In this document: positions 4,702 to 38,498 of the stretch, in pieces
Layout: the number at the start of each line of letters is the position of its first letter
Numbering within the stretch: position 1 is the stretch's first letter
Assembly (NCBI GenBank): GCA_024280265.1
Contig: JAJRQL010000070.1
Coordinates: 1-39,014 of the forward strand
DNA from: Deltaproteobacteria bacterium
GTDB lineage: Bacteria; Desulfobacterota; Desulfobulbia; Desulfobulbales; Desulfocapsaceae
Direction: 5' to 3'
Length of the DNA: 39,014 nt
The notes under the pieces: model-generated
Database searches by the model: none
The model's input: only the letters and a program-made list of their open reading frames with translations
What the model was told of the DNA's origin: nothing
Made by a program: the position numbers and the translations under genes

Positions 4702-4752
4702 TTATACTAATATTAGGCTTGCATTTTCCTGTGCTGACAGTACCATTAAAGA

Positions 4753-6317: not shown

Positions 6318-6351
6318 ATGATCCTCCTGCTAACATGACAATCTTTACCGT

Positions 6352-6384: not shown

Positions 6385-6545
6385 TACTATGCGAAACGTA
6401 TTGCCAACCTCGCCTTTAAACGGGTTATGTAAAATCAGCAGCTAAAAGACACCTGCACTGGCAAAATACCGTATACTTGCGAAGGAAGGTGAGAAGTTAC
6501 TGAAAATTCAAGTTGAAGAACAGTTTTTATGAAGTAAGACACTAA

Positions 6546-7703: not shown

Positions 7704-7720
7704 TTAATGATTTTTTGTTT

Positions 7721-7795
7721 AGCCACGAATTACACGAATGAACACGAATTTTTATTGTTTTCCTTTATTCGTGAATATTCGTGTCATTCGTGGCT
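7721..7795. repeat. Interspersed ACGAAT repeat, copy C (complete palindrome)
   Basis: The left arm AGCCACGAATTACACGAATG is mirrored by a right arm ending GTCATTCGTGGCT, giving a hyphenated palindrome of about 75 bases with an AT-rich centre. Half copies occur at 4006 and 4591. RNA from either strand would fold into a long hairpin, so it may act as a bidirectional terminator or processing site between the flanking genes. Confidence 0.8.
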
Positions 7796-7814
7796 GAAAT
7801 AATGTCTTAAAGAT

Positions 7815-8933: not shown

Positions 8934-8987
8934 TTATCTGGTTGTGTGGATTGAGTAAGGAAAAATCTGTATCGCAGGGTAGCTGGA

Positions 8988-9593
8988 ATGTATAGAATTT
9001 TTTTAAAACGGGTGTTTGATTTCTGCTCGTCATTGCTTGGCCTCGCTCTTTTGTCTCCGATCCTACTGGTTATTACCCTTGTCCTGCTCTGGCAGAACAG
9101 AGGCAAACCTTTTTTCCTGCAGAGCAGACCCGGTTTGTATGAGCGAGAGTTCAAGGTCATCAAATTCAAGACTATGACCGACGAGACCGACGCAAAGGGA
9201 AACCTGCTGTCCAACCATGACCGAACAACGAAGATCGGGGCCTTTTTACGCAAAACATCTCTGGATGAACTTCCCCAGTTGCTCAATGTTTTGAAAGGTG
9301 ACATGAGCCTGATAGGCCCACGGCCCTTACTGTTCAAGTACATCCCACTTTATTCAGAAGAACAGAGCCGCCGCCACCTGGTGCGACCGGGAGTGACCGG
9401 CTGGGCCCAGGTCAATGGCCGAAATGCCATAAGCTGGACCAGGAAGTTTGAGCTGGATGTGTACTATGTTGATAATATCTCGTTCCGGTTTGATATGAAA
9501 ATTTTGTTTTTGACTGTTTTAAAGGTGATCAATTCGGATGGTGTCAATGCTGCCGCCAATATCACCATGCCCCCTTTCGACGGAACCAATTAA
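8988..9593 (+). CDS. PglC/WbaP-type initiating sugar transferase (monotopic phosphoglycosyl transferase)
   Basis: This 201-residue protein has the compact single-domain size of PglC-like enzymes. One hydrophobic re-entrant helix with a Ser-Pro break (LGLALLSPILLVITLVLL, about residues 18-35) is followed by FKVIKFKTM. The catalytic Asp-Glu pair is in TSLDELPQLLNVLKGDMSLI, with GPRPLL next and RPGVTGWAQVNGRN after it. The enzyme moves a sugar-1-phosphate from a UDP-sugar to undecaprenyl phosphate, the first membrane step of glycan assembly. The aminotransferase at 11733 suggests an amino-deoxy sugar as its substrate (inference). The next gene starts two bases after the stop. Confidence 0.93.
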   Translation: MYRIFLKRVFDFCSSLLGLALLSPILLVITLVLLWQNRGKPFFLQSRPGLYEREFKVIKFKTMTDETDAKGNLLSNHDRTTKIGAFLRKTSLDELPQLLNVLKGDMSLIGPRPLLFKYIPLYSEEQSRRHLVRPGVTGWAQVNGRNAISWTRKFELDVYYVDNISFRFDMKILFLTVLKVINSDGVNAAANITMPPFDGTN

Positions 9594-9594
9594 T

Positions 9595-10632
9595 ATGCTC
9601 ACTCGTTTGCTCTATCTCGGATATCACCTGAAAAACCTGGACACAAAAAAGTTACGGTTGTTCACAAACCATGTCACAAACCAGCAGGACAGGTCATCAG
9701 TAGCTCTGCTGGCCGATATGGTTGGTTCGTCACTGAAATACAACACATCTCTGCTGGAATATTTTCAGTTCCACTTTTACGAAAAAGATGCAAGAGAGCG
9801 GGCGACTTATGCCGGTACCGGTTACATGTATGAATACCAGCTGCTGATGAATCCGAAATCCTCCCGTGCAGTACTGGATGATAAAAAAGAGTTCTTTGTC
9901 AGATACAGTCCCTTTGTCAAACATCTGGCCGCCGACATCGACACCCTGCGCGCTCAGGATGAGGTATGCCGGAAGATATTGGCCAATCCATCCGGCAAGA
10001 TCGTTCTTAAATATTCACATGGTCAGTGCGGCTGGCAGGTTGGTATTTATAAAACTGATTTCTTCCGTAATAGAGATTTGGTCGAGTTCATGGAAGAGAA
10101 AAATTATGACCTGGCCGAAGAATTTATTGTCCAGCATCCGGACTTGATGTCCCTGTCTCCGTCCGGAGTGAACACGGTTCGGGTTATTACCCAGCTGGAT
10201 GCTGACGATGAGGTGGTTTTGCTGGGAGCACGGCTGCGAGTTTCCGAAAACTCCCCGGTTGACAATATGGCATCGGGTAATTTTGCGGCTGCCATTGATA
10301 TCAAACCCGGGATCGTAAATACGCCCGGTGTGTACAGTGATATTACCAAAGATGATGTAACTGTGCATCCGGTCACGGGTGTGGATATTGTCGGGTTCCA
10401 GGTGCCGTACTGGCCGGAGATTATCAGCATGGTAAAGAAGGCCGCTGTTCATGCACCGGAAAACCGCTCTATCGGCTGGGATGTCGCCGTGACAGAAAAC
10501 GGACCAGGGCTGATCGAGGGAAATCATGACTGGTGTAAACTTGTCTGGCAGCTACCGATCAAGCAGGGATTAAAACCCGTGCTAAAGAACCATTGGGACA
10601 GCTATAGTCAAAGACCAACGAGAGCAATATGA
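9595..10632 (+). CDS. Sugar-transfer-associated ATP-grasp protein
   Basis: This 345-residue protein matches the ATP-grasp family found beside sugar transferases. The ATP-binding strands are GKIVLKYSHGQCGWQVG and DLAEEFIVQHPDLMSL, and the metal-binding end reads GWDVAVTENGPGLIEGNHDW, where the Glu and Asn are the usual magnesium ligands. Family members are proposed to ligate a carboxylate (amino acid or similar) to a sugar amine, but the substrate is not established. I chose the ATG at 9595, one base after the sugar transferase stop. The 3' end overlaps the next ATP-grasp gene by ATGA, a strong sign of translational coupling. Confidence 0.88.
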   Translation: MLTRLLYLGYHLKNLDTKKLRLFTNHVTNQQDRSSVALLADMVGSSLKYNTSLLEYFQFHFYEKDARERATYAGTGYMYEYQLLMNPKSSRAVLDDKKEFFVRYSPFVKHLAADIDTLRAQDEVCRKILANPSGKIVLKYSHGQCGWQVGIYKTDFFRNRDLVEFMEEKNYDLAEEFIVQHPDLMSLSPSGVNTVRVITQLDADDEVVLLGARLRVSENSPVDNMASGNFAAAIDIKPGIVNTPGVYSDITKDDVTVHPVTGVDIVGFQVPYWPEIISMVKKAAVHAPENRSIGWDVAVTENGPGLIEGNHDWCKLVWQLPIKQGLKPVLKNHWDSYSQRPTRAI

Positions 10633-11687
10633 AAACAATTTTAATGAACGGTGTCGGGGGCCCCACACCAAGAAGTTTTTCCATAGCCTTGAAAAAATAC
10701 AGTAGATACGCGCGCTACCGGATTATTGCCACAGACTGTAATAAATATGCCATGGGACTGTACCGGGATAGCCTGTTCAGCAAATCATACCTGGTACCCA
10801 GGGCAATGAGCGCTGAATACTGGCCGGCCATGGAAGATCTGATAGCGCGGGAGAGTATTGACTGTGCCGTGGTTCTGCCCGAAGTTGAAGCGCTGGAATG
10901 GTCAAAAAGGGCGGAAACATCGTCATTGCCCTGTAAAGCGCTCATTCCTGATTATAAAGTAGCCAGCCAACTGGTGGATAAAGCCGTCATGACCAGACAT
11001 TTGCAACCGTCCGGGCTTGTTCCTGAATCGTTTTCATTTATGCGTGACGAACTAGAACGTACCGACGACTTTGCTCTCCCTTTCCCGTTCTGGGTACTAA
11101 GTGCCGAGGGGTCCAGTGGTTTAGGGTCTTTGCAGGTAAAATCTGCCGGTGATTTGAGGAATTGGGTGACGATAAATCCTGATGTTGAAAAATTTCTTGG
11201 TTCAGAATTTCTGCCGGGGCGGAATCTGGCCTGTAAACTGCTGTACTTCAATGGTAAACTTGTAAGGAGCGCCGTTGGTGAGCGTGTACAGTACATTATG
11301 GCCAAAGTAGCGCCATCCGGTATAACCGGAAACACCTCATTTGGCAGGCTGCTTAATGATCCCGGCGTATTTGAAACAGCACGAAAGGCTATGGAAATCA
11401 TGTTTGAAAAAACAGGTGCTGAGAAACATGGTTTTTTTACTGTTGATCTGAAAGAAGATGAACAGGGCAACCCCAAGGTAACAGAGATAAATATCCGGCA
11501 TGTCGCGTTTACCCAGTGCTTTGCCGCCGGCGGTGCCAATTTTGCCGAAGACACCATCCGCCTTTTAGACAATGATCCCACCTTTGACCGTACCTTCAAT
11601 CTCTATGAATTTGAACCGGATCTTATTTTCCTGCGTGATGTGGACGAACTGCCGATAATGATGCGGGAGACTGAACTACTTTCCTGA
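10629..11687 (+). CDS. ATP-grasp domain protein (carbamoyl-phosphate-synthase-like)
   Basis: This 352-residue protein begins with a PreATP-grasp Rossmann strand (MKTILMNGVGGPTPRSFSIA) that includes VVLPEVEALEW near residue 80. The ATP-grasp core follows: LPFPFWVLSAEGSSGLGS at about residues 148-165, then FLPGRNLACKLLYFNGKLV. The metal-binding strand is PKVTEINIRHVAF (Glu and Asn). Enzymes of this fold form amide or ester bonds through acyl-phosphate intermediates. The start overlaps the preceding ATP-grasp gene, so the two are made together. Having two different ATP-grasp ligases behind one initiating transferase suggests the glycan carries ligated small acids or amino acids; that is inference. 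Confidence 0.85.
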   Translation: MKTILMNGVGGPTPRSFSIALKKYSRYARYRIIATDCNKYAMGLYRDSLFSKSYLVPRAMSAEYWPAMEDLIARESIDCAVVLPEVEALEWSKRAETSSLPCKALIPDYKVASQLVDKAVMTRHLQPSGLVPESFSFMRDELERTDDFALPFPFWVLSAEGSSGLGSLQVKSAGDLRNWVTINPDVEKFLGSEFLPGRNLACKLLYFNGKLVRSAVGERVQYIMAKVAPSGITGNTSFGRLLNDPGVFETARKAMEIMFEKTGAEKHGFFTVDLKEDEQGNPKVTEINIRHVAFTQCFAAGGANFAEDTIRLLDNDPTFDRTFNLYEFEPDLIFLRDVDELPIMMRETELLS

Positions 11688-11732
11688 ATTTGTGGGAACC
11701 AGCTGAACTTCTTTCTACGAGAAAGGTGAATT

Positions 11733-12860
11733 GTGAATAAACGAATTTTTCTCTCTGCACCACACATGGGCGGAAAAGAGCTTGATTTTGTGCGGGAAGC
11801 CTTTGAATCAAACTATATCGCGCCGGTTGGGCCGCAGCTAAATGCCTTTGAGGATGAATTTGCACAAGAGGTAGGAACTGATTACGCCGTTGCGGTTTCA
11901 TCAGGTACTGCCGCGCTCCATCTTTTGTTACGTTATGTGGGCGTGGTGGCTGGTGATGAAGTGTTCTGCTCCAGTTTCACCTTTGTGGCCAGTGCAAATC
12001 CCATTCTGTACCTGGGAGCCCGGCCGGTTTTCATTGATTCTGACAGGCAGAGCTGGAATATGGACCCGGAACTTCTTGCTGAAGAACTTGTGAGGCTCGA
12101 TAAGCAGAATCGTCTTCCAAAGGCACTTGTTCTTGTTCACCTCTATGGTCAGCCTGCAGATATTGACCCCATCAAAGGAATCTGTGACCGTTATGAAATC
12201 GCACTGATTGAAGATGCGGCCGAGGCCCTTGGAGCAACGTATAAAGGAAAGGCTCCTGGATCATATGGCAGGGCCGGATTTTATTCTTTCAATGGCAACA
12301 AGATAATCACTACTTCCGGTGGTGGAATGATTGTTTCCAATGATAAAGCGCTGATTGAAAAAGTGCGTTTCTGGTCCACCCAGGCACGGGACGAAGCGGT
12401 CCATTATGAGCACACCGAAATGGGGTATAATTACCGGATGAGTAATGTGCTGGCCGCCATTGGTAGAGGACAACTTCGGGTACTGAAAAAACGGGTTGAG
12501 GGAAAACGGCAAATATTCAAACACTACTCTGAAGAACTGGGCGCATTGCCGGGAATCTCTTTTATGCCTGAGCCCGACTATGCCTGTTCCACCCGTTGGC
12601 TGAGTTGCGCCATTATCAATCCGGAGACTGCAGGTTTTAGCCGTGACGCGATAATTTCCCGACTTGAAGAAAATAATATCGAGGCCAGACCCACCTGGAA
12701 ACCGATGCATCTGCAACCGCTATTTGAAGAGTATGAAACAATAGGGGGCGGTGTTTGCGGTGAACTGTCTGAGAAGGGTATCTGCCTTCCTTCCGGAACC
12801 GGAATGAAGGCAGATGACCTTGACAGGATACTCTCCATCATCAAAAGCTGCTGGGATTAA
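11733..12860 (+). CDS. DegT/DnrJ/EryC1/StrS-family sugar aminotransferase
   Basis: This 375-residue PLP enzyme has SSGTAALHLLLRYVGV (phosphate cradle, about residue 53 on), VLVHLYGQPADI, and IEDAAEALGATYKG with the Asp that contacts the pyridine nitrogen. The catalytic Lys lies in YSFNGNKIITTSGGGM. The segment EMGYNYRMSNVLAAIGRGQL closes the active site, as in PglE and related UDP-4-keto sugar aminotransferases. It converts a 4-keto (or 3-keto) nucleotide sugar to the amino sugar using glutamate. A GTG start at 11733 follows GAAAGGTGAA, a usable ribosome-binding site. It is downstream of the PglC-like transferase and probably supplies its substrate. Confidence 0.93.
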   Translation: MNKRIFLSAPHMGGKELDFVREAFESNYIAPVGPQLNAFEDEFAQEVGTDYAVAVSSGTAALHLLLRYVGVVAGDEVFCSSFTFVASANPILYLGARPVFIDSDRQSWNMDPELLAEELVRLDKQNRLPKALVLVHLYGQPADIDPIKGICDRYEIALIEDAAEALGATYKGKAPGSYGRAGFYSFNGNKIITTSGGGMIVSNDKALIEKVRFWSTQARDEAVHYEHTEMGYNYRMSNVLAAIGRGQLRVLKKRVEGKRQIFKHYSEELGALPGISFMPEPDYACSTRWLSCAIINPETAGFSRDAIISRLEENNIEARPTWKPMHLQPLFEEYETIGGGVCGELSEKGICLPSGTGMKADDLDRILSIIKSCWD

Positions 12861-12866
12861 TTTTCT

Positions 12867-13502
12867 GTGCTTTTTCTTACCAAAACAAGATTTTTTGCCG
12901 CTCTCCTGCTCATGGTTCTTAGCGGAGGCACCCTTCTCTTCTACAATATGGATACCTTACTGGACCGCTCTTCAAAACCGGTCCCTTCCGACATCATTGT
13001 CTGCCTTTCTTATAATCCGACACGACTCGACCAGGCTATTTCTCTGCTGCAAAAAGGTTTCGGGAAGAAGATCATCGCAACTACTGAGATCACCTATCTC
13101 AATCTCAAAAAGAGACAAATGGCTGATGAGCAAATTGTTATGCTGGCCCCTTCCGGGACCAACACCTATGAGGAAGGTCTTCTTTTACAGAAATACCTGC
13201 AGAACAGCCCTCAGGTGAGAATTGTCTTTATAAGTGATCCTTACCACCTGTACCGGGTGCAGTGGACCATGAAACATCTCTTTGAGAATGCCGCAGAACG
13301 GTTTTCGTATGTGGCCGCTGTTCCGAGAAATCCTGAAGTGTTCTGGTGGAATTCTCTCCCAAGTCGCAGGGAGGTATTGCGGGAAATCCCATCCATCATT
13401 TACTATTGGCTGGGTCACGGCCTGCTTGGCCTGAATCATAACCCGGAATGGGTTGATACAATAAAATATCACTATCTGGACTTACTCAACGACTGGTTCT
13501 GA
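12867..13502 (+). CDS. DUF218/YdcF-like membrane-anchored protein
   Basis: The 211-residue protein starts with one transmembrane or signal-anchor segment (FFAALLLMVLSGGTLLF, about residues 9-25). A DUF218-type domain follows: DIIVCLSYNPTRLDQAISLL, then the TNTYEEGLLLQKYL helix and IVFISDPYHLYRV, where the Thr-x-x-Glu and the Ser-Asp-x-x-His correspond to conserved positions of the SanA/ElyC/YdcF family. These proteins act at the periplasmic face of the membrane in envelope polysaccharide processes, with chemistry poorly known. A GTG start at 12867 lies six bases after the aminotransferase stop, so it ends the same operon. Confidence 0.75.
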   Translation: MLFLTKTRFFAALLLMVLSGGTLLFYNMDTLLDRSSKPVPSDIIVCLSYNPTRLDQAISLLQKGFGKKIIATTEITYLNLKKRQMADEQIVMLAPSGTNTYEEGLLLQKYLQNSPQVRIVFISDPYHLYRVQWTMKHLFENAAERFSYVAAVPRNPEVFWWNSLPSRREVLREIPSIIYYWLGHGLLGLNHNPEWVDTIKYHYLDLLNDWF

Positions 13503-13551: not shown

Positions 13552-14616
13552 TCATCGTTTTGCAGTCAGAATCTCCCGTTTTTTCTCACTGGCCACTTTC
13601 TTCTCTGCCGACAAAGTTCTCACAAAACGTACAGCATCTGAAAAGCTGTCCTGGGCTGGTAGCGTCAGGCCAATCTGTATCAGAACCGGGTACGGCATTA
13701 ATTTGCTGGCCAGATCATACTGTATCCATATGTTCAGATAAGTCCTTTTCAGAAAAGAAGGTCGTATCTTTCTCACAAAATCATCCGGAAGACTCATTCC
13801 CGTAACTTTATTAAGATAACGCGCTGTAATCCACGCTGCAGTACAGACACCATATCTGGAAAAAACATTCAGTAGATTCTCCCAGTCAACTGGTTGTTTC
13901 TCGACCCATCGCAATAAATCAACAAACCGCACCAGGGAAGCCATTGATGTGGTGGAATATTTGGTGAAGACCGGGTGTACAAGCATGATAAAAAGGGTAG
14001 TCTCTACGTCAAATCCTGCACAAGAAGGATACAGCCGTCGTCTGGCCAGAAACTCATCGGTGAGTGACATCCGTAACCGTACGGGACGAAGAATATGCCA
14101 GTGAAGATCAACAGCCACATTTTTATAATAGAGCGTTACTTCGTGGCTGACATTCTGCTCTTTTACCTCCAGAGAGAATCCCATGTCTGTGAGCGCTTCA
14201 ATCGCTTTGCTCACGTCCGCAGAATGGATAAGGATATCTATATCAACAGCAGGACGCACCGATGGTTGATCATATAACAGTTCACGAACATGAACCCCTT
14301 TAAACACAGCATAAACAATCGATTTCCCATCGAAGATAGCAGCGACGGTATTGAGAACATGCTGCTGGATAAGATAGCGGGCAGCCAACTCCAGCGAATC
14401 TCGCTCAAGCAGCTGCAGGAGTTCTTGGCTGAAAATCAGGAATCGCGGGTATCTTCTGAGTAGCTGGCACCACATGGCACCCAGATCATTACGGCGAATA
14501 AAGATCAAAAGATCTTCCTTCACGGGTACAGACAATGCTGAAATTTCTTCCAGAAAAGGCTCCGGCTGTCTCAACAGTGGCGCTAACGCAAGTTTATGAT
14601 ATCTGTATCTGCCCAT
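13552..14616 (-). CDS. Nucleotidyltransferase family protein (NTP_transf_5-like)
   Basis: This 354-residue protein shows the nucleotidyltransferase hallmark around residues 120-132, SVRPAVDIDILI, where the two Asp would bind metal, followed by the strand VAVDLHWHIL with a third acidic residue. This matches the NTP_transf_5 (PF14907) type. Members occur in polysaccharide clusters and, in Firmicutes, within paeninodin-type lasso peptide clusters, but their reaction is not settled. It is convergent with the polysaccharide operon (stops 50 bases apart) and stands alone on its strand. A link with the lasso operon 5 kb away is possible but unproven. Its start lies just beside a REP-like MITE. Confidence 0.75.
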   Translation of the reverse strand: MGRYRYHKLALAPLLRQPEPFLEEISALSVPVKEDLLIFIRRNDLGAMWCQLLRRYPRFLIFSQELLQLLERDSLELAARYLIQQHVLNTVAAIFDGKSIVYAVFKGVHVRELLYDQPSVRPAVDIDILIHSADVSKAIEALTDMGFSLEVKEQNVSHEVTLYYKNVAVDLHWHILRPVRLRMSLTDEFLARRRLYPSCAGFDVETTLFIMLVHPVFTKYSTTSMASLVRFVDLLRWVEKQPVDWENLLNVFSRYGVCTAAWITARYLNKVTGMSLPDDFVRKIRPSFLKRTYLNIWIQYDLASKLMPYPVLIQIGLTLPAQDSFSDAVRFVRTLSAEKKVASEKKREILTAKR

Positions 14617-18816: not shown

Positions 18817-19519
18817 GGATCAAGTCCGTTTTTGACTGTTGTGTTGTTCAAAATAGAAAATAAAAAAAACCAAAAAAACATACTTGCAGAACACCATGTC
18901 CAGACCATTACGAATTGAATAGAGATTTATAAAAACCCTTTGTGAATCTTCAGAGCTATGGAATCTTCAAATATCCGCCTACTGTCTGATGCCGAACCAC
19001 TACCATCTTCTGCTCCAGACTCCCGAGGGAAATCTTTCACGTTGTATGCTCCATATTAACGGGGTATACACCCAACGGTTCAATTGCATACATAACAAAG
19101 AAGGACAGCTGTTTCGTAGACGCTACAAAGCCATCCATTCAAAGAATCGATTAAAGAACTCTTCTCCAGACTGCTTAATGCAGAAATCCCTGAGTCAAAG
19201 ACCTTAACGCCATACGCAGGTGAGGTAATAAACGCAGTATGTGCTCACTGCCATATTTCTGAAATCGAGTTAATGAAATCAAAAAGAGGCACTGAGAACT
19301 TGGCCAGATACATAGCTGTCTACCTTGTGCGCACCCTCTGCCACATGACTCTGTCATCTGTCGGCCGTGAATTTGGGTTCACCAGCTACAGCACTGTAAA
19401 TACAGTGACTCAAAAGATTAACCACAGAAAAGAAAGAGACAAACGTTTGCAGAAAACTCTTGATGAGATAAGTAATATCATCCGGGTACGACACAAAAGT
19501 CAACAGCCGACTTGACCCC
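18817..19519. mobile_element. Decayed REP-associated transposase element with inverted ends
   Basis: The left end GGATCAAGTCCGTTTTTGACT and the right end AGTCAACAGCCGACTTGACC are inverted relatives and enclose the broken RAYT gene. The same ends border the 107-bp element at 14627. The element sits immediately upstream of the lasso operon and may have replaced or moved its original promoter region. Confidence 0.7.
18896..19515 (+). pseudogene. REP-associated tyrosine (Y1) transposase with DnaA-like C-terminal domain, broken
   Basis: MSRPLRIE, the usual start of RAYT-type Y1 transposases, is read from 18896 and then hits a stop at 18920. After a deletion the family core resumes as CLMPNHYHLLLQTPEGNLSR (His-x-His metal motif HYH), then RFNCIHNKEGQLFRRRYKA. 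Then comes a frameshift. The last in-frame stretch (to 19515) reads RYIAVYLVRTLCHMTLSSVG and EFGFTSYSTVNTV, resembling the DnaA domain IV helix-turn-helix. Intact relatives cut single-stranded REP hairpins. The internal stop and frameshift show this copy is dead; the N-terminal catalytic half is partly deleted. Confidence 0.8.
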
Positions 19520-19590: not shown

Positions 19591-20583
19591 ATGCCTCCTG
19601 CAATAGAACTCCATCATATTTCGAAAACATTCACCGAACGTAACTGGAAGACATTTCTGTTTCAGAAACCACGGCGCACAAAAGCGCTTGATGACATTTC
19701 TCTGAGCGTTGAAAAAGGTGAGATAATGGGTCTGCTGGGGCCTAACGGTGCCGGAAAGACCACCCTTATCAAAATCCTCGCCACGCTGGTCTCAGCCGAT
19801 AAGGGAACTGGTTCCATTTCCGGATATTCCCTATCCACTCAATCCGCAGAAGTCAGAAATAAAATTGGTCTTGTCAGCACCAATGACCGCACCTTTTACT
19901 GGCGACTCACAGGAAGGGACAATCTTGATTTTTTTGCCACTCTCTACAATCTGAACGGAGCAGCAAAAAAGAGAAGGATAGACCAGGTATTACAATTGAC
20001 TCAATTAATTGACTATGCAGATTTTCGGTTTATGTCTTATTCGGCAGGTCAGAAACAGCGCCTCTCCATTGCAAGAGCTCTGCTCTCCAGGCCCGACATA
20101 CTGCTTCTTGATGAGGCCACTTCCAGCCTCGACCCAATCGCCCGCCGTAAAGTCCTGGATTTCACCAAAAACATTCTCTCCATTAAAGAGGAAAAAACCA
20201 TACTCTGGTGTACCCATAATCTCACTGAGGCAAACGAGATCTGCGACAGTTTAACCATCCTCAATAATGGAAAAGTTCTCCAAAGCGGTTCTGCTGATGC
20301 AATCAGAAACCGCAAGCTCGGACAATGCGGATTTTCCATAACCGTCAGTGGTTCAGACAGCGTTATCATGCAGCAGAGGGATTTCAAGATTGTCACACGT
20401 CACCGTGACGGTTCATCCACCTGGCACGTCTCTGCCCCCCGGAATCAGATCCCTGAAATCATACGTAACTTATCGAACTCTGGTGTTGATATATTTGAGG
20501 TTTTGCCGGAATCAGAATCTCTGGAAACTGTATTCACAACAATCGTGGCCAAACCACACCCCGGTACCTGCCATGTTGAGTAA
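19591..20583 (+). CDS. ABC transporter ATP-binding protein (lasso peptide export/immunity)
   Basis: This 330-residue ATPase has Walker A GPNGAGKTT (residues 50-58), the Q-loop region near GLVSTND, the signature YSAGQKQRLS (150-159), Walker B ILLLDEATSSLDP (170-182) and the switch His in LWCTHNLTEAN. The C-terminal 100 residues resemble DrrA-like extensions. It pairs with the ABC-2 permease that overlaps its 3' end. In this operon it most likely exports the lasso peptide or protects the producer, replacing the fused McjD-type exporter. I prefer the ATG at 19591; a TTG at 19564 is an in-frame alternative. Neither has a strong ribosome-binding site. Confidence 0.9.
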   Translation: MPPAIELHHISKTFTERNWKTFLFQKPRRTKALDDISLSVEKGEIMGLLGPNGAGKTTLIKILATLVSADKGTGSISGYSLSTQSAEVRNKIGLVSTNDRTFYWRLTGRDNLDFFATLYNLNGAAKKRRIDQVLQLTQLIDYADFRFMSYSAGQKQRLSIARALLSRPDILLLDEATSSLDPIARRKVLDFTKNILSIKEEKTILWCTHNLTEANEICDSLTILNNGKVLQSGSADAIRNRKLGQCGFSITVSGSDSVIMQQRDFKIVTRHRDGSSTWHVSAPRNQIPEIIRNLSNSGVDIFEVLPESESLETVFTTIVAKPHPGTCHVE

Positions 20584-21394
20584 CAGTGTAGCGACGAAAT
20601 TCATTGCCTTCCTAAAACGAGACTTTAAAACAGCTGCCAGCTACAGACTCAACTTTGTTTCCCAAGGATTTCGTATTCTCATCACCACCTTTTCTTTCTT
20701 TCTGGTTTCCAAGATGTTCGACGGGCAAGCCAGCCCCCTTCTTGAGCCATATGGCAGTCACTATTTCCCCTTTGTTCTGATTGGAGTCGCCCTGACTGAT
20801 TTCATAGCCACATCCACAAACACCTTCTCCAATGAAATTCGTACCGCTCAAGTCCTTGGGACCCTGGAGTCTCTCCTGGTCACCCCAACTTCAATCAACA
20901 CCATCCTTTTTTCATCATTTACTTACAAACTCTTGGCCACAAGCCTTCGTATTCTATTTTATTTCCTCCTTGGAATATGCGTATTCGGCGTCTCATTCCC
21001 ATCAATAGATATTACTGCCCTTATTCTGAGTTTTATCCTCACACTGGTACCACTCTTTGGAGTTGGTCTGTTATCGGCCACCTTTATTCTGGTCTTTAAA
21101 CAGGGCAACCCTGTGGGAAGCCTCATTGCCATGACATCAGCTCTTCTGGGTGGAGTAATTTACCCAGTTTCAGTACTTCCCGGCTGGCTGGTTCCTTTTT
21201 CTAATATCCTTCCAGTTACGCATGGACTTGAAGCCATCCGACAGGTATTATTAAATGGCGCTGGAATTCATGAAATTCAGAATCAACTCTATATTCTCTG
21301 CATACTCTCACTATTATTTGTAGCACTGGGCAGCACCTCTATCTATTATGGTTTGAAAATCGCTAAAAAAGAAGGTTCACTGCTCCATTACTGA
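20573..21394 (+). CDS. ABC-2 type transporter permease (lasso operon)
   Basis: This 273-residue integral membrane protein has about six hydrophobic helices, including FRILITTFSFFLVSKMF, ILFYFLLGICVFGVSF, LILSFILTLVPLFGVGLLSA and LYILCILSLLFVALGSTSI. The conserved ABC-2 segment near YPVSVLPGWLVPFSNILPVT is followed by the HGLEAIRQVLLNG coupling region. It starts 11 bases inside the ATPase gene and ends one base before the next start, so it is clearly an operon partner. It likely forms the channel half of the exporter or immunity complex. Confidence 0.9.
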   Translation: MLSNSVATKFIAFLKRDFKTAASYRLNFVSQGFRILITTFSFFLVSKMFDGQASPLLEPYGSHYFPFVLIGVALTDFIATSTNTFSNEIRTAQVLGTLESLLVTPTSINTILFSSFTYKLLATSLRILFYFLLGICVFGVSFPSIDITALILSFILTLVPLFGVGLLSATFILVFKQGNPVGSLIAMTSALLGGVIYPVSVLPGWLVPFSNILPVTHGLEAIRQVLLNGAGIHEIQNQLYILCILSLLFVALGSTSIYYGLKIAKKEGSLLHY

Positions 21395-21763
21395 ATGAAT
21401 GAACAGTACTCATATTTTCTTCAAGATAAAGAACAACCACCACTGACCATGGACAAAATAAAAAAGATATCCCTGGAAAACACAGCATTACCAACATTGG
21501 CATTCTGTCGTAAGACGGACAAATTATCAACTGAACTTGACCAGGAAACTATTATCCTGGATATGGATTCTGGAATTTACAGTCAACTCAATCCAGTTGC
21601 CTCAACAATCTGGCAGTTGCTGATTCAACCCGTCAATTATGACACCATTGTTCAAAAAATTACGGCCGAATACGATACAACAGAGGCAAAATGCAAACAG
21701 GAAATTATAGATTTCCTCATCGCGTTGGCTGAACATAATCTCATAACAGTTACTGATGCGTGA
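21395..21763 (+). CDS. PqqD-like RiPP recognition protein (lasso B1)
   Basis: The 122-residue protein carries a PqqD-type RiPP recognition element, with the beta strands ETIILDMDSGIYSQLNPVAS (about residues 49-68), then TIWQLLIQPVNYDTIVQKIT and the helical bundle EIIDFLIALAEHNLI. In lasso systems B1 binds the leader peptide and presents the precursor to B2 and the cyclase. The first 40 residues are an extra N-terminal stretch, and a start at 21449 would give the minimal domain. The ATG at 21395 directly abuts the permease stop, and the 3' end overlaps B2 by eight bases. Confidence 0.88.
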   Translation: MNEQYSYFLQDKEQPPLTMDKIKKISLENTALPTLAFCRKTDKLSTELDQETIILDMDSGIYSQLNPVASTIWQLLIQPVNYDTIVQKITAEYDTTEAKCKQEIIDFLIALAEHNLITVTDA

Positions 21764-22202
21764 TCTGTTTAAATTTTTTCGTCTCTCCTACCAGGAGAAA
21801 CTGTTTTTCATCAAGGCGTTTTACACCATTGGATATTTTCGGCTGCTCCTCAGAAAACGGGAGCTGCAGGCTCTTTTTACCTCTGTAAGCTCCAGATCGA
21901 GAAAACTTCTCAAACACCCAGAATCCTCAACCATTCCTCCGGCAAGGCTTGCCCGCCTGATCCACATCGCCAACGGACTGGTTCCCTTGAGTACCTGCCT
22001 TGCGCAATGCCTCGCCGGAAAACAACTTCTTGCGGAAAAAGGTTATAAAACTACACTCCACATTGGCGTCAACAACCAGATCCAATCCGGATTTGAAGCC
22101 CATGCATGGCTCAGCATGAACGGAAACATTCTGCTTGGTGATATCAGCAACCTTCACCAGTACCATGAACTTTCGTCACCTTCCTCTCTGGATGAACCAT
22201 GA
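21756..22202 (+). CDS. Lasso peptide leader protease (B2, transglutaminase-like)
   Basis: This 148-residue protein matches the Transglut_core3 (PF13471) leader peptidase. The catalytic Cys is in STCLAQCLAGKQLLAEKG (Cys81), the His in EAHAWLSMNG (His116) and the Asp in LLGDISN (Asp129), giving the triad. It cleaves the precursor after the leader, probably after Thr-Arg as predicted from the precursor. It overlaps B1 by eight bases and the cyclase by ATGA, so these three genes are coupled. Length and order agree with split B1/B2 lasso clusters. Confidence 0.92.
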   Translation: MRDLFKFFRLSYQEKLFFIKAFYTIGYFRLLLRKRELQALFTSVSSRSRKLLKHPESSTIPPARLARLIHIANGLVPLSTCLAQCLAGKQLLAEKGYKTTLHIGVNNQIQSGFEAHAWLSMNGNILLGDISNLHQYHELSSPSSLDEP

Positions 22203-24109
22203 GCGGTATTGGGGGGATACTTCATCGTGACCGCCAGCACCTGAACCTTCAACAAATCACGATGATGAGTGAAGCCCTCGCCCACCGTGGCCCGGACGGT
22301 GTAACTTCCTACACCTCACCCCACGCCGGTCTTATCCACTGTATGCTCCACAACACACCCGAATCTCTGTTTGAAAGTTTACCCGGAAAATCAGAAAATG
22401 ATCATTTTGTGATCACCTGGCATGGGCGTATCGACAACAGACAGGAACTCAAAGACCGCACTGGCTGGAAACTGCCACTCGACGAAACGACGGACAGCGA
22501 TCTTATTCTGGCCGCCTTCCAGAAATGGAAGAGTGCGTGTGTGCACCATCTCCTTGGAGATTTTGCGCTTGCCATTCTGGACATATCAAAAAACTCTCTC
22601 TTCTGTGCCAGGGATCACATGGGCATAAAACCCTTTTACTATCTGCTGACGGACTCTGTTTTTGCCTTTTCCTCTGAAATAAAAGGTCTCTTCCATATCC
22701 CGGAATTTGACCCTGCGCCCAATGAAATACGAATCGCCGACTATCTAACCTGTATTATTACTGAAAACAGTTCCACCTTTTATAAAAACATACTCCGACT
22801 CCCCCCTGGACACACCTTGGAGGTTACACCTGAAAAAAGCACATGCCAGATGTACTGGCAGCCACATCCTGTTCCAACATCCTGTCGCAACGGCTCAGAA
22901 TACCAGGAGCAGTTTTATTCAATCTTCAACGAAGCTGTCCAATGCAGAATGCGTTCTACACACCCTGTGGGATCGCTTCTCAGTGGTGGACTGGACTCCT
23001 CTTCCATAGTGTGTATGGCTGCAGGTCCCTTGAAAAAACATTTACACGGTTCGCTTCACACCTGTTCAGGTGTATTCGATACCGTCACAGAATGTGATGA
23101 AAGACACTATTTCCAGGCCATATTAAAAACACATACCCTTGTTTCTCACTCTATTATCGCAGACCAAATCAACCCGGGCCCTGCATATGACGCTGCATTT
23201 GCTCGACACGATGAACCGTTCTCGGCACCCCACTTTTTCATGCCCGATGCACTTCTTAAGGCAGCCGGAAAAACAGGTGTCCGTACACTTCTTGATGGTC
23301 ATGATGGCGACTCAGCAGTTTCTTATGGACTTGGTCTGTTTCATGAGCTTTTCGTCCATGGCCAATGGATCAGTCTTCTACGTGAATTTCTGGCAATCCA
23401 GAACGAACCAACTCTCAGCCAGGGAGCAAAGTTTTTCATGCGGTTGGGTATACACAGTCTCTTTAATACGCTTCCCCCTTTCCTCCAAAACAGATACTAT
23501 TCCCGCCAAATTGCAGAAAACATTCGGCACCTCAACACTGCATTCATTCTCAAAAGCAATCTTAAAGAGCACCTTTTGACACCAAGGCTCACACCACCGA
23601 GGTTCAGTCAGAGGGAGCAACATTGCCATTTGCGTAATATCAGTAGTCCACTCCAGCCGGTTGCGCTTGAATTCATGGACCTGCAAAGCGTCAGCCATGG
23701 GATTGAAAGCAGGTATCCTTTTTTTGATCCCCGATTGATTTCTTTCTGCCTTGCCTTGCCTGCCCGTCAAAAATTTTCCCATGGATATAATCGTCATATT
23801 GTCAGAGCATCCTTATCCTCTCTCCTCCCTGAAATCATTAAAAGGAGAAAAAGCAAAACGGATTTCTCTCCAAATTTGCGGCACCTATTCTCAACTACTG
23901 CCAATTCCTGGCTTCGTTTTCATATTGACAGATTTCCCCAAGATGTCTATTATTACATAAATAAAGAAAAGCTCGAAGAAATTCAGAATTCATTTCGTCA
24001 ACAATCTTCCAAAACTTCTATTCTGGACATGACGTATCTGTTACGCTGTATCAGCCTTGCAGATTGGTTAGCAAACAAACAGGGAGCAAAGCATGTCTCA
24101 ACACAATGA
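22199..24109 (+). CDS. Lasso peptide cyclase (asparagine synthetase-like C protein)
   Basis: This 636-residue asparagine-synthetase homologue has an N-terminal glutaminase-like domain (HRGPDG at 29-34, ARDHMGIKPFYY near 137) and a C-terminal synthetase domain. The ATP pyrophosphatase loop is SGGLDSSS (262-269), with LLDGHDGDSAVSYG further on. Residue 2 is Ser instead of the Cys nucleophile of true asparagine synthetases, so glutamine hydrolysis is not expected. Lasso cyclases adenylate an Asp or Glu side chain and join it to the core N-terminus. It lies directly upstream of the precursor gene and overlaps it. Confidence 0.93.
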   Translation: MSGIGGILHRDRQHLNLQQITMMSEALAHRGPDGVTSYTSPHAGLIHCMLHNTPESLFESLPGKSENDHFVITWHGRIDNRQELKDRTGWKLPLDETTDSDLILAAFQKWKSACVHHLLGDFALAILDISKNSLFCARDHMGIKPFYYLLTDSVFAFSSEIKGLFHIPEFDPAPNEIRIADYLTCIITENSSTFYKNILRLPPGHTLEVTPEKSTCQMYWQPHPVPTSCRNGSEYQEQFYSIFNEAVQCRMRSTHPVGSLLSGGLDSSSIVCMAAGPLKKHLHGSLHTCSGVFDTVTECDERHYFQAILKTHTLVSHSIIADQINPGPAYDAAFARHDEPFSAPHFFMPDALLKAAGKTGVRTLLDGHDGDSAVSYGLGLFHELFVHGQWISLLREFLAIQNEPTLSQGAKFFMRLGIHSLFNTLPPFLQNRYYSRQIAENIRHLNTAFILKSNLKEHLLTPRLTPPRFSQREQHCHLRNISSPLQPVALEFMDLQSVSHGIESRYPFFDPRLISFCLALPARQKFSHGYNRHIVRASLSSLLPEIIKRRKSKTDFSPNLRHLFSTTANSWLRFHIDRFPQDVYYYINKEKLEEIQNSFRQQSSKTSILDMTYLLRCISLADWLANKQGAKHVSTQ

Positions 24110-24281
24110 AAAATTATCACCGGAAATTGAACTGAGCGGTCTGGCCACCAGAGCAGAGTACACTGCACCGGAAATCACCGTATTAGGCACAGCCGAAGAA
24201 CTCACCAGGGCTAATGAGGACTGTACTAATACCGATTGTGCATTTCCTGGTGCTACCGGCTGTGACGATGTCTGCAGTTAA
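24093..24281 (+). CDS. Lasso peptide precursor (A)
   Basis: This 62-residue peptide starts inside the end of the cyclase gene (17-base overlap). The leader holds the B1-recognition pattern YTAPEITVLGTAEELTR, with Tyr23, Pro26, Ile28, Gly32 and the penultimate leader Thr38 in standard lasso spacing. That predicts cleavage after Arg39. The remaining 23-residue core begins ANEDCTNTD, placing Asp at position 9 as acceptor for a ring closed on Ala1. The tail has Cys10, Cys18 and Cys22, and Cys5 lies in the ring. The last residue is Ser. Ala at position 1 is uncommon but known. Product mass and activity cannot be judged from the DNA. Confidence 0.88.
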   Translation: MSQHNEKLSPEIELSGLATRAEYTAPEITVLGTAEELTRANEDCTNTDCAFPGATGCDDVCS

Positions 24282-24341
24282 TCCAGCCTGAGTACAACGA
24301 TAATTCACAACATCACCTTCCGTACTTAAGGAGTATTCTGT

Positions 24342-25235
24342 TTGTTCTATTACTCGGCGTACGGGGTTCTTATACAATCTGACTGCCCTCTTCCAGGTTT
24401 CTCTGAAAGCTCCCGCGACACCCCGGATATCTCAATTTTGAGGAATCTTCCTCTTCCGGCATCACACCAGAAACCATCCAGCATATCCCTTTTTCAATCA
24501 GATAATGGTCTCTGTGTTCATTGGCCAGGTGTCGCTTCCTATACGATATGTGAAGGCAGGCGAGTCATCATCACTCCCACAGAGAATGGGCGGGCTAATC
24601 TGGAACAGCAACCACTGTACGGTATTGTGCTTGCGGCAATTCTTCAGCAACGAGGTCTCCTCATTCTGCATGGTAGTTCAGTGGAAATTAACGGCCGTGG
24701 CTTACTTATCATCGGCCAGAAAGGGTATGGAAAATCAACAATAACCGCATCCCTGCTTACCAGGGGACACGGTTTTCTCACCGATGATGTCACAGCACTG
24801 AAAATACACAAGCTGCAGCCCACACAAATTCTTCCCGGTATCCCCAGACTAAAATTATGGCCGGATGCAGTACGGGTCCTTGGATTTAAACCAGAAGCTT
24901 TTCCACTTGTGGCCCCCACCATCCAGAAACATGTCCTATGTTACTCTGAACAGTTTAGAAATGAGACAACACCATTACAGACTATTGTAATGCTCAAATA
25001 TGGTAATACCACTAAACTGACAACACTTTCAGAAAAAGAAAAGAGTTTATGCTTGCTTGGGAATCAATATTTTTCCAGATACCACCATGCATTCAACAAG
25101 GAAAGTCACCACATCATCTTCCAGCAATGCACAGATCTTGCCCGGCAGTGTGATATCGTGCAATTACAAATGGTGCGGGACATCACCTCTCTGCCAAGGA
25201 TTACAACCATATTGGAAGAATATATCGCTGAATGA
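24342..25235 (+). CDS. HPr-kinase-like enzyme (lasso tailoring kinase)
   Basis: This 297-residue protein carries HPr-kinase features in its C-terminal half: LILHGSSVEINGRG (His110), the P-loop GQKGYGKST (125-133), and LTDDV (Asp148-149) as the catalytic acidic pair. The N-terminal half lacks the regulatory domain of true HprK. Related kinases in paeninodin-type lasso clusters phosphorylate the C-terminal Ser of the precursor, and the precursor next door ends in Ser. The start is a TTG at 24342, chosen because AAGGAG lies eight bases upstream and no nearby ATG fits. Its 3' end overlaps a small ORF by ATGA. Confidence 0.87.
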   Translation: MFYYSAYGVLIQSDCPLPGFSESSRDTPDISILRNLPLPASHQKPSSISLFQSDNGLCVHWPGVASYTICEGRRVIITPTENGRANLEQQPLYGIVLAAILQQRGLLILHGSSVEINGRGLLIIGQKGYGKSTITASLLTRGHGFLTDDVTALKIHKLQPTQILPGIPRLKLWPDAVRVLGFKPEAFPLVAPTIQKHVLCYSEQFRNETTPLQTIVMLKYGNTTKLTTLSEKEKSLCLLGNQYFSRYHHAFNKESHHIIFQQCTDLARQCDIVQLQMVRDITSLPRITTILEEYIAE

Positions 25236-25468
25236 GAAGGGACCGGGAGGCAATCAGCTTTTCTGTACTACCATTCCACAGGGAGACCACGGGTGCCTCA
25301 CGTCCAGCCTCAAGTCTTTTTGACGCTGAGACAGTGTCTTGGGCGGATAACGAACAAAGCAATTCACCCGTAGATTCAGAACTGAGAGACAGCTGGAGGA
25401 GGCTGAAAATAAAAAAACGCGAATACCGCCAACTACATTCAGCCACCGGTATTCACATTAAGGTATAA
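25232..25468 (+). CDS. Small hypothetical protein at the end of the lasso operon (78 aa)
   Basis: The ATG overlaps the kinase stop (ATGA), the same coupling seen elsewhere in the operon, giving a hydrophilic 78-residue frame with no recognised domain. Against it, the last third lies in the terminator hairpin of the convergent PEP-CTERM gene, and the composition is not clearly protein-like. It may be a spurious frame or a fast-evolving accessory peptide. Confidence 0.35.
   Translation: MRRDREAISFSVLPFHRETTGASRPASSLFDAETVSWADNEQSNSPVDSELRDSWRRLKIKKREYRQLHSATGIHIKV
25408..25456 (-). terminator. Rho-independent terminator of the PEP-CTERM gene
   Basis: On the minus strand a 10-bp stem (GTGAATACCG with CGGTATTCGC, one G-T pair) encloses an 18-base loop. 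It is followed by GTTTTTTTATTTT, a proper U-run, about 45 bases after the stop codon at 25497. It may also slow plus-strand transcripts from the lasso operon. Confidence 0.8.
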
Positions 25469-25496: not shown

Positions 25497-26207
25497 CTAC
25501 TTTCGTTTTCTCCTGTAACACATTCCAAGCAAGCCGGTGACACCAACACCAAACAGCAGCATGGTGGCTGGTTCTGGAATAGGATTGGAGATATTATCAG
25601 TATCCTGATAGAACTCAAAAACATCCTTTGAAGTAAAGGCACTCCCTGTAAAGTCTATAAGCATACTCTGATAGACATCACCATAGACAGATGTACCAGT
25701 TATAGCAATATCACCGATATAAAAAACGTCTATCACGTCAGTATACGTCGTGGTGGCAAGATTACCAAAATCGATTCCAAGCGGTGAACCCATCCGAGAA
25801 CCTACAGTACCAAAGTTGACGCCATCATTATCAAATATTACATTGTTGTCAAACCCATCCAGAAATATTGATTCAATGGAGGTACCTGTGACATCAAAAA
25901 CCCAAAAGCTTCCATAATAGGTAGTCTGAGCAGGATCATCCATGTATAATGACCAACCATTACCCACTGCGCCCGTACCCGCCCCACTGGAATCCCAGCT
26001 CACGGTATCAGAGCCACCACCCTCGTAGACAACGGTAACTTCCATATCAGCCATATACAAGCCAGTAGTGTTAAATGTTGATATGCTGTCAACATACTCC
26101 ACGGTATCTGGGATTTCATTTATATTTATAGTTGCTGCCTGAGAAGATCCAAACATGGCAACAGCAAAAACACCCGTTAAAGTGGTCACCAGATAGGCTT
26201 TTTTCAT
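25497..26207 (-). CDS. PEP-CTERM sorting-signal protein
   Basis: The 236-residue secreted protein has a signal peptide (MKKAYLVTTLTGVFAVAMFG, cleavage near SSQA). A middle rich in Gly, Ser, Thr and Asp follows, and then the C-terminal tripartite signal NPIPEPATMLLFGVGVTG with a basic tail CYRRKRK. PEP-CTERM proteins are processed by exosortase (EpsH/XrtA) and reach the outer surface or biofilm matrix, often together with exopolysaccharide gene clusters like those in this window. No exosortase gene is present here, so the enzyme must lie elsewhere. The middle has no recognised domain. The gene stands alone and ends in a good terminator. Confidence 0.92.
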   Translation of the reverse strand: MKKAYLVTTLTGVFAVAMFGSSQAATININEIPDTVEYVDSISTFNTTGLYMADMEVTVVYEGGGSDTVSWDSSGAGTGAVGNGWSLYMDDPAQTTYYGSFWVFDVTGTSIESIFLDGFDNNVIFDNDGVNFGTVGSRMGSPLGIDFGNLATTTYTDVIDVFYIGDIAITGTSVYGDVYQSMLIDFTGSAFTSKDVFEFYQDTDNISNPIPEPATMLLFGVGVTGLLGMCYRRKRK

Positions 26208-35528: not shown

Positions 35529-36938
35529 CTACTCCTCCCGGCCGTAATCGTCTTCAAATCTGACGATATCATCTTCGCCAAGATAACTGCCATTCTGCAC
35601 TTCGATAAGCTCAAGTTCCAGAACTCCTGGATTTTCGAGACGATGGCTCACCCCTGCAGGGATGTAGGTGGACTGATTCTCATAGAGGAGAAAGATTTCA
35701 TCACCATTGGTGATTCTAGCCGTACCTGACACCACCACCCAATGTTCATGGCGATGATGATGCATCTGAAGAGACAACTTAGCTCCGGGATTGACCGTAA
35801 TCCGCTTTATCTGATAACGGAGGTGCTCTTCAAGCACTGTATAACTCCCCCAGGGTCTGTGAACAGTGCGGTGCAGGCGAAATTCCCTGCGCCTCTCAGA
35901 CTTCAACCGGCCAACTATTTTTTTTACATCCTGCGAACGGGACAGCGGTGCAACCAGTACAGCATCAGCTGTCTCCACAACCAGCATATCCTCAAGGCCC
36001 ACGGTTGCAACAAGGGTGTCTTCTGCACGTATCAGACAGTTACTGGTATCTTCCAGCAGTACATCACCAAGTACCACATTACCCGATTCGTCCTTATCAG
36101 AAACTTCCCACAGGGCATGCCAGGAACCGATATCGCTCCAATCAAGATCAGCTGCAACCATGGCTATCTTATCGGTCTTTTCCATGAGCGCATAATCAAT
36201 GGAGTCACTGGGACAGCGGCCCATTGCACCGCCATCAAGCCTGAAAAATTTCCCATCCCGTTTTCCAAGTAAAACCGACTCTCTCATACAGGAGAGCATA
36301 GCCGGAGCCAGCCGTTCCATCTCCTCCCGAAACGTCTGCACAGTAAAGGCAAACATACCGCTGTTCCAGAAGTAATTTCCCTTATCAAGATAGGATTCTG
36401 CAGTATCACGATCGGGCTTTTCACGAAAAGAAAGCACCTCGCTGCCCTCTCCCTGCTCGATATAGCCATATCCTGTTTCAGGATGTTGAGGCTCAATACC
36501 AAAGGTGACAATCTTGCCATTTGCCGCAAGTTCAGCTGCCTCTGTCACCACTTTCTGGAAAGCCTCTTTTTTGAGAATCAAATGATCTGCGGGCAGGACA
36601 AGCATGATGGTATCATCCGGTTGTTCAATCGCAACATACTCCACAGCCCCACAGACGGCCGGGGCCGTATTACGTCCAACTGGCTCCAGGAGAATGGTAT
36701 ATCCATCCTCGGGCACCAGGCCATCCACCTGACGACGAGTGACAAAACGGTGTTCTTCACCGACCACGAGAAGGGGTGGCAACACTTCCACCAGCTGTCC
36801 CACCCGCAGAACTGTTGTCTGCAGCAGGGAGGTTGCGTCAATGAGTTGCAACAGCTGTTTCGGGTAGAGTTCCCGGGATAGCGGCCAGAGTCTTGAGCCG
36901 GTGCCACCAGCCAGGATCACAGGTTGTATCTTCTGCAT
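35529..36938 (-). CDS. manC: Mannose-1-phosphate guanylyltransferase/mannose-6-phosphate isomerase
   Basis: The protein (469 residues from this start) has the two-domain form. The N-terminal nucleotidyltransferase carries AGGTGSRLWPLSRELYPKQL and later MLVLPADHLIL; FREKPDRDTAESYLDKGNYF binds the sugar phosphate. The C-terminal cupin isomerase has GAKLSLQMHHHRHEHWVVVS with the metal-binding His residues. It makes GDP-mannose from mannose-1-phosphate, and mannose-6-phosphate from fructose-6-phosphate. The ATG at 36938 has GAGGA upstream; an ATG at 36953 overlapping the manB stop is an alternative. It is co-transcribed with manB and convergent with mtnA. Confidence 0.95.
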   Translation of the reverse strand: MQKIQPVILAGGTGSRLWPLSRELYPKQLLQLIDATSLLQTTVLRVGQLVEVLPPLLVVGEEHRFVTRRQVDGLVPEDGYTILLEPVGRNTAPAVCGAVEYVAIEQPDDTIMLVLPADHLILKKEAFQKVVTEAAELAANGKIVTFGIEPQHPETGYGYIEQGEGSEVLSFREKPDRDTAESYLDKGNYFWNSGMFAFTVQTFREEMERLAPAMLSCMRESVLLGKRDGKFFRLDGGAMGRCPSDSIDYALMEKTDKIAMVAADLDWSDIGSWHALWEVSDKDESGNVVLGDVLLEDTSNCLIRAEDTLVATVGLEDMLVVETADAVLVAPLSRSQDVKKIVGRLKSERRREFRLHRTVHRPWGSYTVLEEHLRYQIKRITVNPGAKLSLQMHHHRHEHWVVVSGTARITNGDEIFLLYENQSTYIPAGVSHRLENPGVLELELIEVQNGSYLGEDDIVRFEDDYGREE

Positions 36939-36952
36939 GGTAATTTTCCTCA

Positions 36953-38314: not shown

Positions 38315-38498
38315 CCATCTATCCTTTTTTTCTGTATGATTTTAGTATGATTTTCACTATATTGAACCAGGCGGTATCGCAACAAGGAACAGAAGCCACC
38401 CTGCCTCGTAGCTAACCGTCAGTTTTCACTATTTATTTCAAGATATTAGTAAAGAAACCATAGCAAATAACAGTAATTAAATCAAGGCAACGACACCC
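38315..38498. other. Divergent promoter region between manB and rmlA
   Basis: 184 bases without a gene. It must hold the promoters for manB (minus) and rmlA (plus). It is AT-rich near both starts; no strong consensus box is evident by eye. Confidence 0.4.

Follow-up and report, generated by a model that had tools for sequence, protein, structure and literature searches.

The window analysed here is the whole 39,014-nucleotide stretch of contig JAJRQL010000070.1 (assembly GCA_024280265.1) from a sulfur-cycling Deltaproteobacteria bacterium of the order Desulfobulbales. At positions 19591-25235 its plus strand carries seven coupled genes, encoding in this order an ATP-binding cassette (ABC) ATPase, an ABC permease, the proteins B1 and B2, a cyclase (C), a precursor peptide (A) and an HPr-kinase-like enzyme (K) (Table 1). 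These genes support the reading of the locus as a complete lasso-peptide operon of a Desulfobacterota genome. A preliminary description made from the letters alone had proposed seven contiguous, mostly overlapping and tightly coupled genes, and all seven lie where it had placed them. The families it named were borne out as well: B2 and the cyclase pass curated lasso cut-offs, while PqqD, ABC2_membrane and Hpr_kinase_C matches exceed their family cut-offs, so that K, whose motif residues are also intact, had been correctly named even though its target residue was not. The description was likewise right in expecting a Desulfobacterota genome, as the nearest named kinase relatives are found in a Desulfobulbaceae metagenome-assembled genome (MAG) and a Desulfocapsa sp. 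MAG. Its catalytic triad for B2 holds in part: Cys81 and His116 are invariant across 7 aligned B2 proteins, and the acidic third residue fails. Below, the window locus is referred to as WIN, and L and G numbers denote the loci and genomes compared.

Table 1. Features of the lasso operon and the adjoining PEP-CTERM gene, with positions in the window.
Feature	Position	Strand	Evidence
D1, ABC-2 type exporter ATPase	19591..20583	+	PF00005 111.9 bits; drrA-like model below cut-off; homologs in lasso loci L052, L053, L055, L105
D2, ABC-2 type exporter permease	20573..21394	+	ABC2_membrane PF01061 48 bits (cut-off 26.9); 11-bp overlap with D1
B1, PqqD-like leader-binding protein (recognition element, RRE)	21395..21763	+	PqqD PF05402 55.3 bits (cut-off 23.4); abuts D2
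B2, leader peptidase	21756..22202	+	NF033537 lasso_biosyn_B2 65.5 bits (cut-off 33); 8-bp overlap with B1
C, asparagine-synthetase-like lasso cyclase, second residue Ser	22199..24109	+	NF033535 599.5 bits (cut-off 525); PF00733 143.6 bits; 4-bp overlap with B2
A, precursor peptide, 62 residues	24093..24281	+	Sequence, leader motif, related precursors in L052, L053, L054; 17-bp overlap with C
Predicted leader part of A, residues 1-39	24093..24209	+	T(-2); Asp9 shared by the six compared cores
Predicted core ANEDCTNTDCAFPGATGCDDVCS, residues 40-62, 23 residues	24210..24278	+	Predicted ring Ala1-Asp9; Cys 5/10/18/22; C-terminal Ser23
K, HPr-kinase-like lasso precursor kinase, TTG start	24342..25235	+	Hpr_kinase_C PF07475 40.9 bits (cut-off 33.3); 60-bp gap after A
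Hairpin then T7, probable terminator of PEP-CTERM gene	~25416..25459	-	Fold; not among sites of consensus scan
PEP-CTERM protein gene, convergent with K	25497..26207	-	PF07589 28.6 bits (cut-off 20.7); homologs beside lasso genes in L052, L053, L054, L102, L108
Probable terminator between PEP-CTERM gene and glnA-like gene	26593-26558		Consensus scan

The window genome contains a single B2 match. An AAGGAG sequence at 24328-24333 lies ahead of the TTG start of K at 24342, and the lasso-specific PqqD model NF033536 scores B1 at 60 bits, under its cut-off of 80. An identity of the cyclase as an amidotransferase of the XrtA/PEP-CTERM system was tried and rejected. Model TIGR03108 reached 204 bits where its cut-off is 817, compared with 599.5 bits (cut-off 525) for NF033535, and the XrtA-type identity was dropped because NF033535 is over its cut-off and both B2 and a precursor are present. 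A search of Rfam at gathering thresholds gave no match.

It is highly improbable that the operon is decayed or silent and yields no product. Such an outcome would be in keeping with the broken IS200-type transposase remnant just upstream (18989-19515) and with the number of promoter-like sites, which is at chance level (13 versus 12.4 expected in shuffles); terminator-like sites are near chance too (9 versus 6.8). Against decay, all seven frames are intact and coupled and their motifs conserved, and two relatives hold the whole operon at the same site with kinase identities of 47-49%.

Precursor A was called from its position, its leader motif and the conservation of the motif positions in relatives. 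Numbered back from the cut, the leader has the residues Y(-17), P(-14), I(-12) and T(-2), with Ile replacing the Leu of YxxPxL. A YxxPxL motif at -17 to -12 and a penultimate Thr have been reported for lasso leaders, including YxxPxL in those of the BsfA type (PMC10368454). The predicted core was compared with those of L052 (ATEEGAKCDGVLFGDQPCVS), L053 (GNETQQSCDAMGPGHGIDPCSP), L054 (GNETSNQCDAPIPGRGDLSCS), L102 (ATSLGPKMDGVECNEGHSNCLMAS) and L108 (NIGTKGSGDLAYEGRNCKSAGNCS). Asp9 is present in all six cores, each has an even number of Cys residues (four in WIN, two in each of the others), and Ser is terminal in five and second-last in the sixth, the WIN core ending in DVCS. The core is otherwise variable around fixed Asp9, Cys and Ser features, a pattern that we infer to be that of a lasso family under selection. 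For two further precursors, in L104 and L106, the first acidic residue from position 7 on falls at position 10 if the cut follows T(-2)-X(-1), which would mean that the cut is shifted or the ring unusually large.

The C-terminal Ser acquires significance from the kinase. The His-Lys-Asp-Asp (HKDD) motif of PadeK/ThcoK-type lasso kinases, which phosphorylate the C-terminal Ser of their precursors, is required according to mutational analysis (PMC9266682), and the K residues H110, G130-K131-S132-T133, D148 and D149 are invariant with the lasso kinases of Priestia, Paracoccus and Sulfitobacter, at 25-27% identity. Clusters were ranked with a kinase profile made from the query together with as many as 12 of the same sequences, and the 13 loci scoring at least 289 bits with it were taken as close-kinase loci. 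Among the clusters with a close and intact kinase, 12 of 12 precursors have Ser in the last (9) or second-last (3) position, compared with 4 of 12 loci that have a weaker, distant kinase and a recognised precursor (one-sided Fisher 0.0007, with kinship among loci uncorrected). The thirteenth close-kinase locus, L071, was excluded from this count since its kinase appears broken, with matches in two frames; its two precursors, which end in Asn and Gln, lack Ser from both final positions. The precursors of L060, L108, L109 and L110 required a looser search and stand outside the 12-and-12 count. Among sequences from annotated plasmids, Ser is also the last residue of the precursors of Priestia and Paracoccus and of one of the two Sulfitobacter frames that resemble precursors. 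Within the WIN core Ser23 is the sole Ser, there being no Ser3, and Ser23 is therefore the likely phosphorylation site of K, a reading that its being the only candidate favours and does not prove.

We consider it very probable that the operon product is a paeninodin-type, C-terminally phosphorylated lasso peptide, probably also bearing disulfides. An unphosphorylated lasso peptide with two disulfides, similar to class I, is an improbable alternative, in which K would be a relic or would have another target. The four core Cys residues would fit two disulfides, and several other B2 loci of the phylum have no kinase match nearby. Speaking for phosphorylation instead are the intact K with its motif residues, its place directly after A not only in WIN but also in L052, L053, L054, L102 and L105, and the association of a close intact kinase with Ser in the last two positions. 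Moreover, class I lasso peptides are described with an N-terminal Cys (PMC4289311), whereas residue 1 in WIN is Ala.

The Cys residues themselves are less readily classified. Disulfide-containing lasso peptides have been divided into classes with ring-loop and ring-tail (I), ring-tail (III) or tail-tail (IV) bonds (PMC13352647). With Ala1 and Cys at 5, 10, 18 and 22, the WIN core appears to fit none of these directly, and it lacks the N-terminal Cys in the ring that, along with two disulfides, marks class I. The cores of L052-L054, with Cys8 and a second Cys at 18 or 20 versus the four Cys of WIN, look class III-like, while those of L102 and L108 look class IV-like. Because the WIN Cys pattern differs from those of its nearest relatives, its disulfides cannot be read by homology. 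An even number of Cys is a feature shared with known class I and III peptides such as sviceucin and BI-32169, and a Cys in the predicted ring with a Cys near the tail end, as in L052-L054, is shared with class III. In contrast, the parts of the literature consulted link no kinase to those classes and, where retrieved on the combined terms, describe no kinase-bearing lasso cluster with Cys pairs.

Several observations weigh against a phosphorylated, disulfide-bearing product as proposed. Precursor A has no family match over cut-off (the leader model NF033521 reaches 15.8 bits, cut-off 19), the acidic residue of the proposed B2 triad varies among the 7 aligned proteins, and Thr8 in WIN replaces the Cys8 of three of its nearest relatives. 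The Ser rule has exceptions in the second Sulfitobacter frame, which ends in TTP, and in a Halopiger frame ending in PAPT, and related kinases have been reported to act on Ser3 of BsfA and LppA instead of the last residue (PMC10368454, PMC13381572). AlphaFold models built from three-row alignments were too poor to use, both for K (predicted local distance difference test, pLDDT, 36) and for the PEP-CTERM protein discussed below (pLDDT 31).

Projecting knowledge of these families onto the observed gene set, motifs and conservation, each reaction, as well as disulfide formation and export, can be proposed to proceed as follows. B1 would bind and present the leader via Y(-17), P(-14) and I(-12), and K would phosphorylate the C-terminal Ser23 on the linear precursor. 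B2 would then cut after residue -1, and C would activate Asp9 and link this residue to Ala1, so that a ring of nine residues encloses the tail. Export of the product would fall to the two-part ABC transporter, and outside the cytoplasm the four Cys (5, 10, 18, 22) could form two disulfides. At the surface of the producer the exported peptide might act with the PEP-CTERM protein, as ligand, cargo or target of protection.

Three other genomes, G402 (L052), G398 (L053) and G572 (L105), share the order ATPase-permease-B1-B2-C-A-K, and of these G398 and G402 are listed in the genus of the window; a scan of genome contigs returned only two relatives, L052 and L053, and one of viral contigs gave no match. 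The preliminary description had taken the lack of a conserved neighbourhood in related genomes as grounds for abandoning its proposal; the neighbourhood is conserved in L052, L053 and L105. Elsewhere the arrangement varies: the gene set of L055 is the same but A and K precede C, B2 is displaced in L103, and in G425 the lasso operon is split, with B1-C-A-K and a PEP-CTERM gene (L054) about 0.43 Mb from ATPase-permease-B2 (L186). Known kinase clusters are reported in the orders C-A-K-B1-B2-D in Bacillota and A-B1-B2-C-K-D in proteobacteria (PMC5067487), and both orders were found in annotated plasmids, of Priestia (L209) and Paracoccus (L213) respectively. The presence of HPr kinases in lasso clusters from anaerobes was pointed out in 2014 (PMC4289311). 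As the preliminary description had said, the layout is neither that of McjABCD nor the paeninodin order, but its novelty was overstated, kinase-bearing clusters being known, in proteobacteria included. The new order and the two-gene ABC-2 exporter thus make this a variant and not a new kind, because kinase-bearing orders are known in both Bacillota and proteobacteria: it is a paeninodin-type lasso system with a new gene order and an unusual Cys pattern.

With the paeninodin-type systems (PadeK and ThcoK of Bacillota, SyanK of Sphingobium), the operon shares split B1 and B2 proteins, a cyclase, an HKDD kinase and a Ser-ending precursor (PMC9266682, PMC5067487). PadeK, ThcoK and SyanK are likened here by description, and the 25-27% identity of K refers to the plasmid comparators. 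The operon differs in its order, D1-D2-B1-B2-C-A-K, gene order not being a chemical criterion, and in having an exporter of two genes, as opposed to the single long ABC gene of Priestia and Paracoccus; the predicted nine-residue Ala1-Asp9 ring and four core Cys further set it apart. The bsf cluster of Bradymonas, also outside Bacillota, has a kinase (BsfK), split B1 and B2 and a YxxPxL leader in common with it (PMC10368454), but BsfK is reported to act on Ser3 and the bsf leader has Ile(-2), compared with Ser23 as the sole core Ser and Thr(-2) here. Among the plasmids compared, the Priestia lasso kinase (L209, 5477-6412) carries the label 'aldolase' in the public record, and an archaeal plasmid of Halopiger xanaduensis (L210) encodes B1, B2, a cyclase and a nucleotidyltransferase, together with a stretch resembling HPr kinases for which only two short hypothetical proteins are annotated.

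The preliminary description made no mention of the PEP-CTERM gene that adjoins the operon. An exosortase (PF09721) was found in 10 of the 11 genomes searched, that of the window included, and not in G402, which is 85% complete; the PEP-CTERM protein is probably sorted to the cell surface by an exosortase-type route. WIN, L052 and L053 lie at one chromosomal site, arranged as cysC-[lasso]-PEP-glnA (the names cysC-like and glnA-like are our own reading). A second site is common to L054 and L102, with polyprenyl synthetase and polysaccharide deacetylase genes on one side and AICARFT/IMPCHase and nucleotidyltransferase genes on the other (Pfam). Between these two loci the flanking genes are oppositely oriented while the orientation of the PEP gene, K, C and B1 is kept, and we conclude that the lasso and PEP genes move or flip as one block, since they are inverted together relative to the shared flanks. 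At four loci the PEP and precursor genes form a tandem pair on the same strand: in L067 they overlap at the PEP stop and the start of the precursor (ATGA), and the gap between them is 21 bp in L109, 65 bp in L066 and 94 bp in L108.

To place these pairings against a background rate, we used the 34 genomes of the order that have a kinase match, which contain 202 PEP-CTERM matches in 135.7 Mb; such matches are rare in the window genome, numbering 4. A complete PEP-CTERM frame is found no more than 700 bp from a lasso gene at 13 of the 37 kinase loci of the order, where 0.23 would be expected. The 700-bp limit was set after the distances were known; for 12 of the 13 the distance is no more than 400 bp, and all 13 paired genes are also among the genome-wide PF07589 matches. 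Left outside the 13 were L058, whose PEP gene is cut by a contig end, L111 (1263 bp) and L118 (1795 bp), and outside the 37 was L068 in G423, a region with no PEP-CTERM gene. The proteins fall into five ectodomain families with no detectable similarity outside the sorting tail: family 1 in WIN, L052, L053, L054, L102 and L108, family 2 in L064, L066 and L067, family 3 in L065 and L113, family 4 in L110 (and, farther off, L111) and family 5 in L109. When the 13 non-independent loci are replaced by about 7 groups defined by family and site, the Poisson chance of at least 7 is 6e-9. The repeated pairing of lasso and PEP-CTERM genes at kinase loci of the order is statistically strong.

The pairing, counted within Desulfobacterota, does not extend to lasso loci in general. 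It was found at 0 of 19 further B2 loci of the order outside the kinase set, of which only 7 have a cyclase, several are on short contigs and four have weak kinase matches near B2, and at 0 of 22 B2 loci taken from the phylum (L070, L071, L120-L139), three of which belong to the order and three of which had no match to the profiles used. A general link was rejected on these counts, and because of them the pairing is claimed for kinase loci of the order only. Both counts also tell against a partnership of protein and peptide, as does the distribution of the WIN PEP protein itself. Its 15 full-length matches (E below 1e-14) among 257 genomes of the order include 6 that adjoin lasso genes and one, in G551, with a precursor about 1.5 kb and a B1 about 2 kb away. 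The other 8 have no lasso genes in the fetched DNA, one of these (G536) being at the end of a 4-kb contig. Within the close-kinase loci, a WIN-type PEP protein accompanies 5 of 5 with at least two core Cys versus 0 of 7 others, though the five may be one clade.

These data allow for a PEP-CTERM neighbour that is present by chance or through shared descent of one site and is unrelated to the lasso peptide, an explanation we regard as rather unlikely. WIN, L052 and L053 share a site and have to be counted once, and at L178 (G494) a PEP homolog stands beside a glnA-like gene with no lasso genes there, as if the place of the PEP gene by glnA were older than the lasso operon. The absence of pairing at the other B2 loci, the 8 matches apart from lasso genes and the post hoc distance limit point in the same direction. 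However, chance or a single inherited site would have to account for an excess at the kinase loci that persists when they are reduced to seven groups, for the involvement of five dissimilar ectodomain families, for the joint inversion in L054 and L102, and for the overlapping or closely spaced tandem genes of L067, L109, L066 and L108.

We tentatively propose that, at the cell surface, the exported peptide may have the adjacent PEP-CTERM protein as a partner. By extension, it is conceivable, if still short of probable, that in Desulfobulbales a lasso peptide, here phosphorylated and disulfide-braced, could form half of a two-part surface system, in which it would act on, be held by or be countered by a dedicated PEP-CTERM protein, with unrelated ectodomains recruited by different lineages. 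If this is true, a PEP-CTERM protein would gain a defined ligand, and lasso peptides would act at the producer's own surface, beyond their role as antibiotics. The role of phosphorylation in lasso peptides is described as unsettled, in a statement made of such modifications generally (PMC9266682); a kinase, several Cys and a surface-type neighbour in one locus make the role of the phosphate testable. The title of Craig et al. 2011 links N-acyl amino acid synthases to PEP-CTERM/exosortase, so that there too a natural-product gene is tied to PEP-CTERM sorting, but the chemistry is different and no ribosomally synthesized and post-translationally modified peptide (RiPP) is involved. In the open-licence literature, lasso peptides and PEP-CTERM/exosortase were found mentioned together only via a reference title, in the accessible parts of PMC6602434 and PMC8776678. 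Among the matches listed from that literature on Desulfobacterota, Desulfobulbales, ABC-2 permease and RiPP/exosortase, no title or beginning of an abstract describes the pairing, which is no proof of novelty.

Among the genes flanking the operon, an NTP_transf_5 (PF14907) gene lies at 13552-14616, 5 kb upstream and on the opposite strand. The nucleotidyltransferase PsmN is reported to tailor phosphorylated lasso peptides elsewhere (PMC9266682). A role of the window gene as a PsmN/BsfN-like tailoring enzyme was set aside, given its distance, its strand and the lack of a match (E 1e-15) in 10.8 kb of the corresponding G398 site. In L059 and L103 a frame weakly related to this gene is found directly 3' of the kinase. 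The transposase remnant at 18989-19515 comprises two pieces in different frames, one of Y1_Tnp (22.3 bits, cut-off 23) and one resembling the C-terminal helix-turn-helix of DnaA (31.6 bits, cut-off 31.5). Polysaccharide-type genes, which we read without a family search as glycosyltransferases, a sugar transferase and sugar nucleotide enzymes, flank the operon at 1789-13500 and 35529-39014; polysaccharide genes also surround the kinase-lasso cluster on the Paracoccus plasmid (L213) and lie near that of Sulfitobacter (L211).

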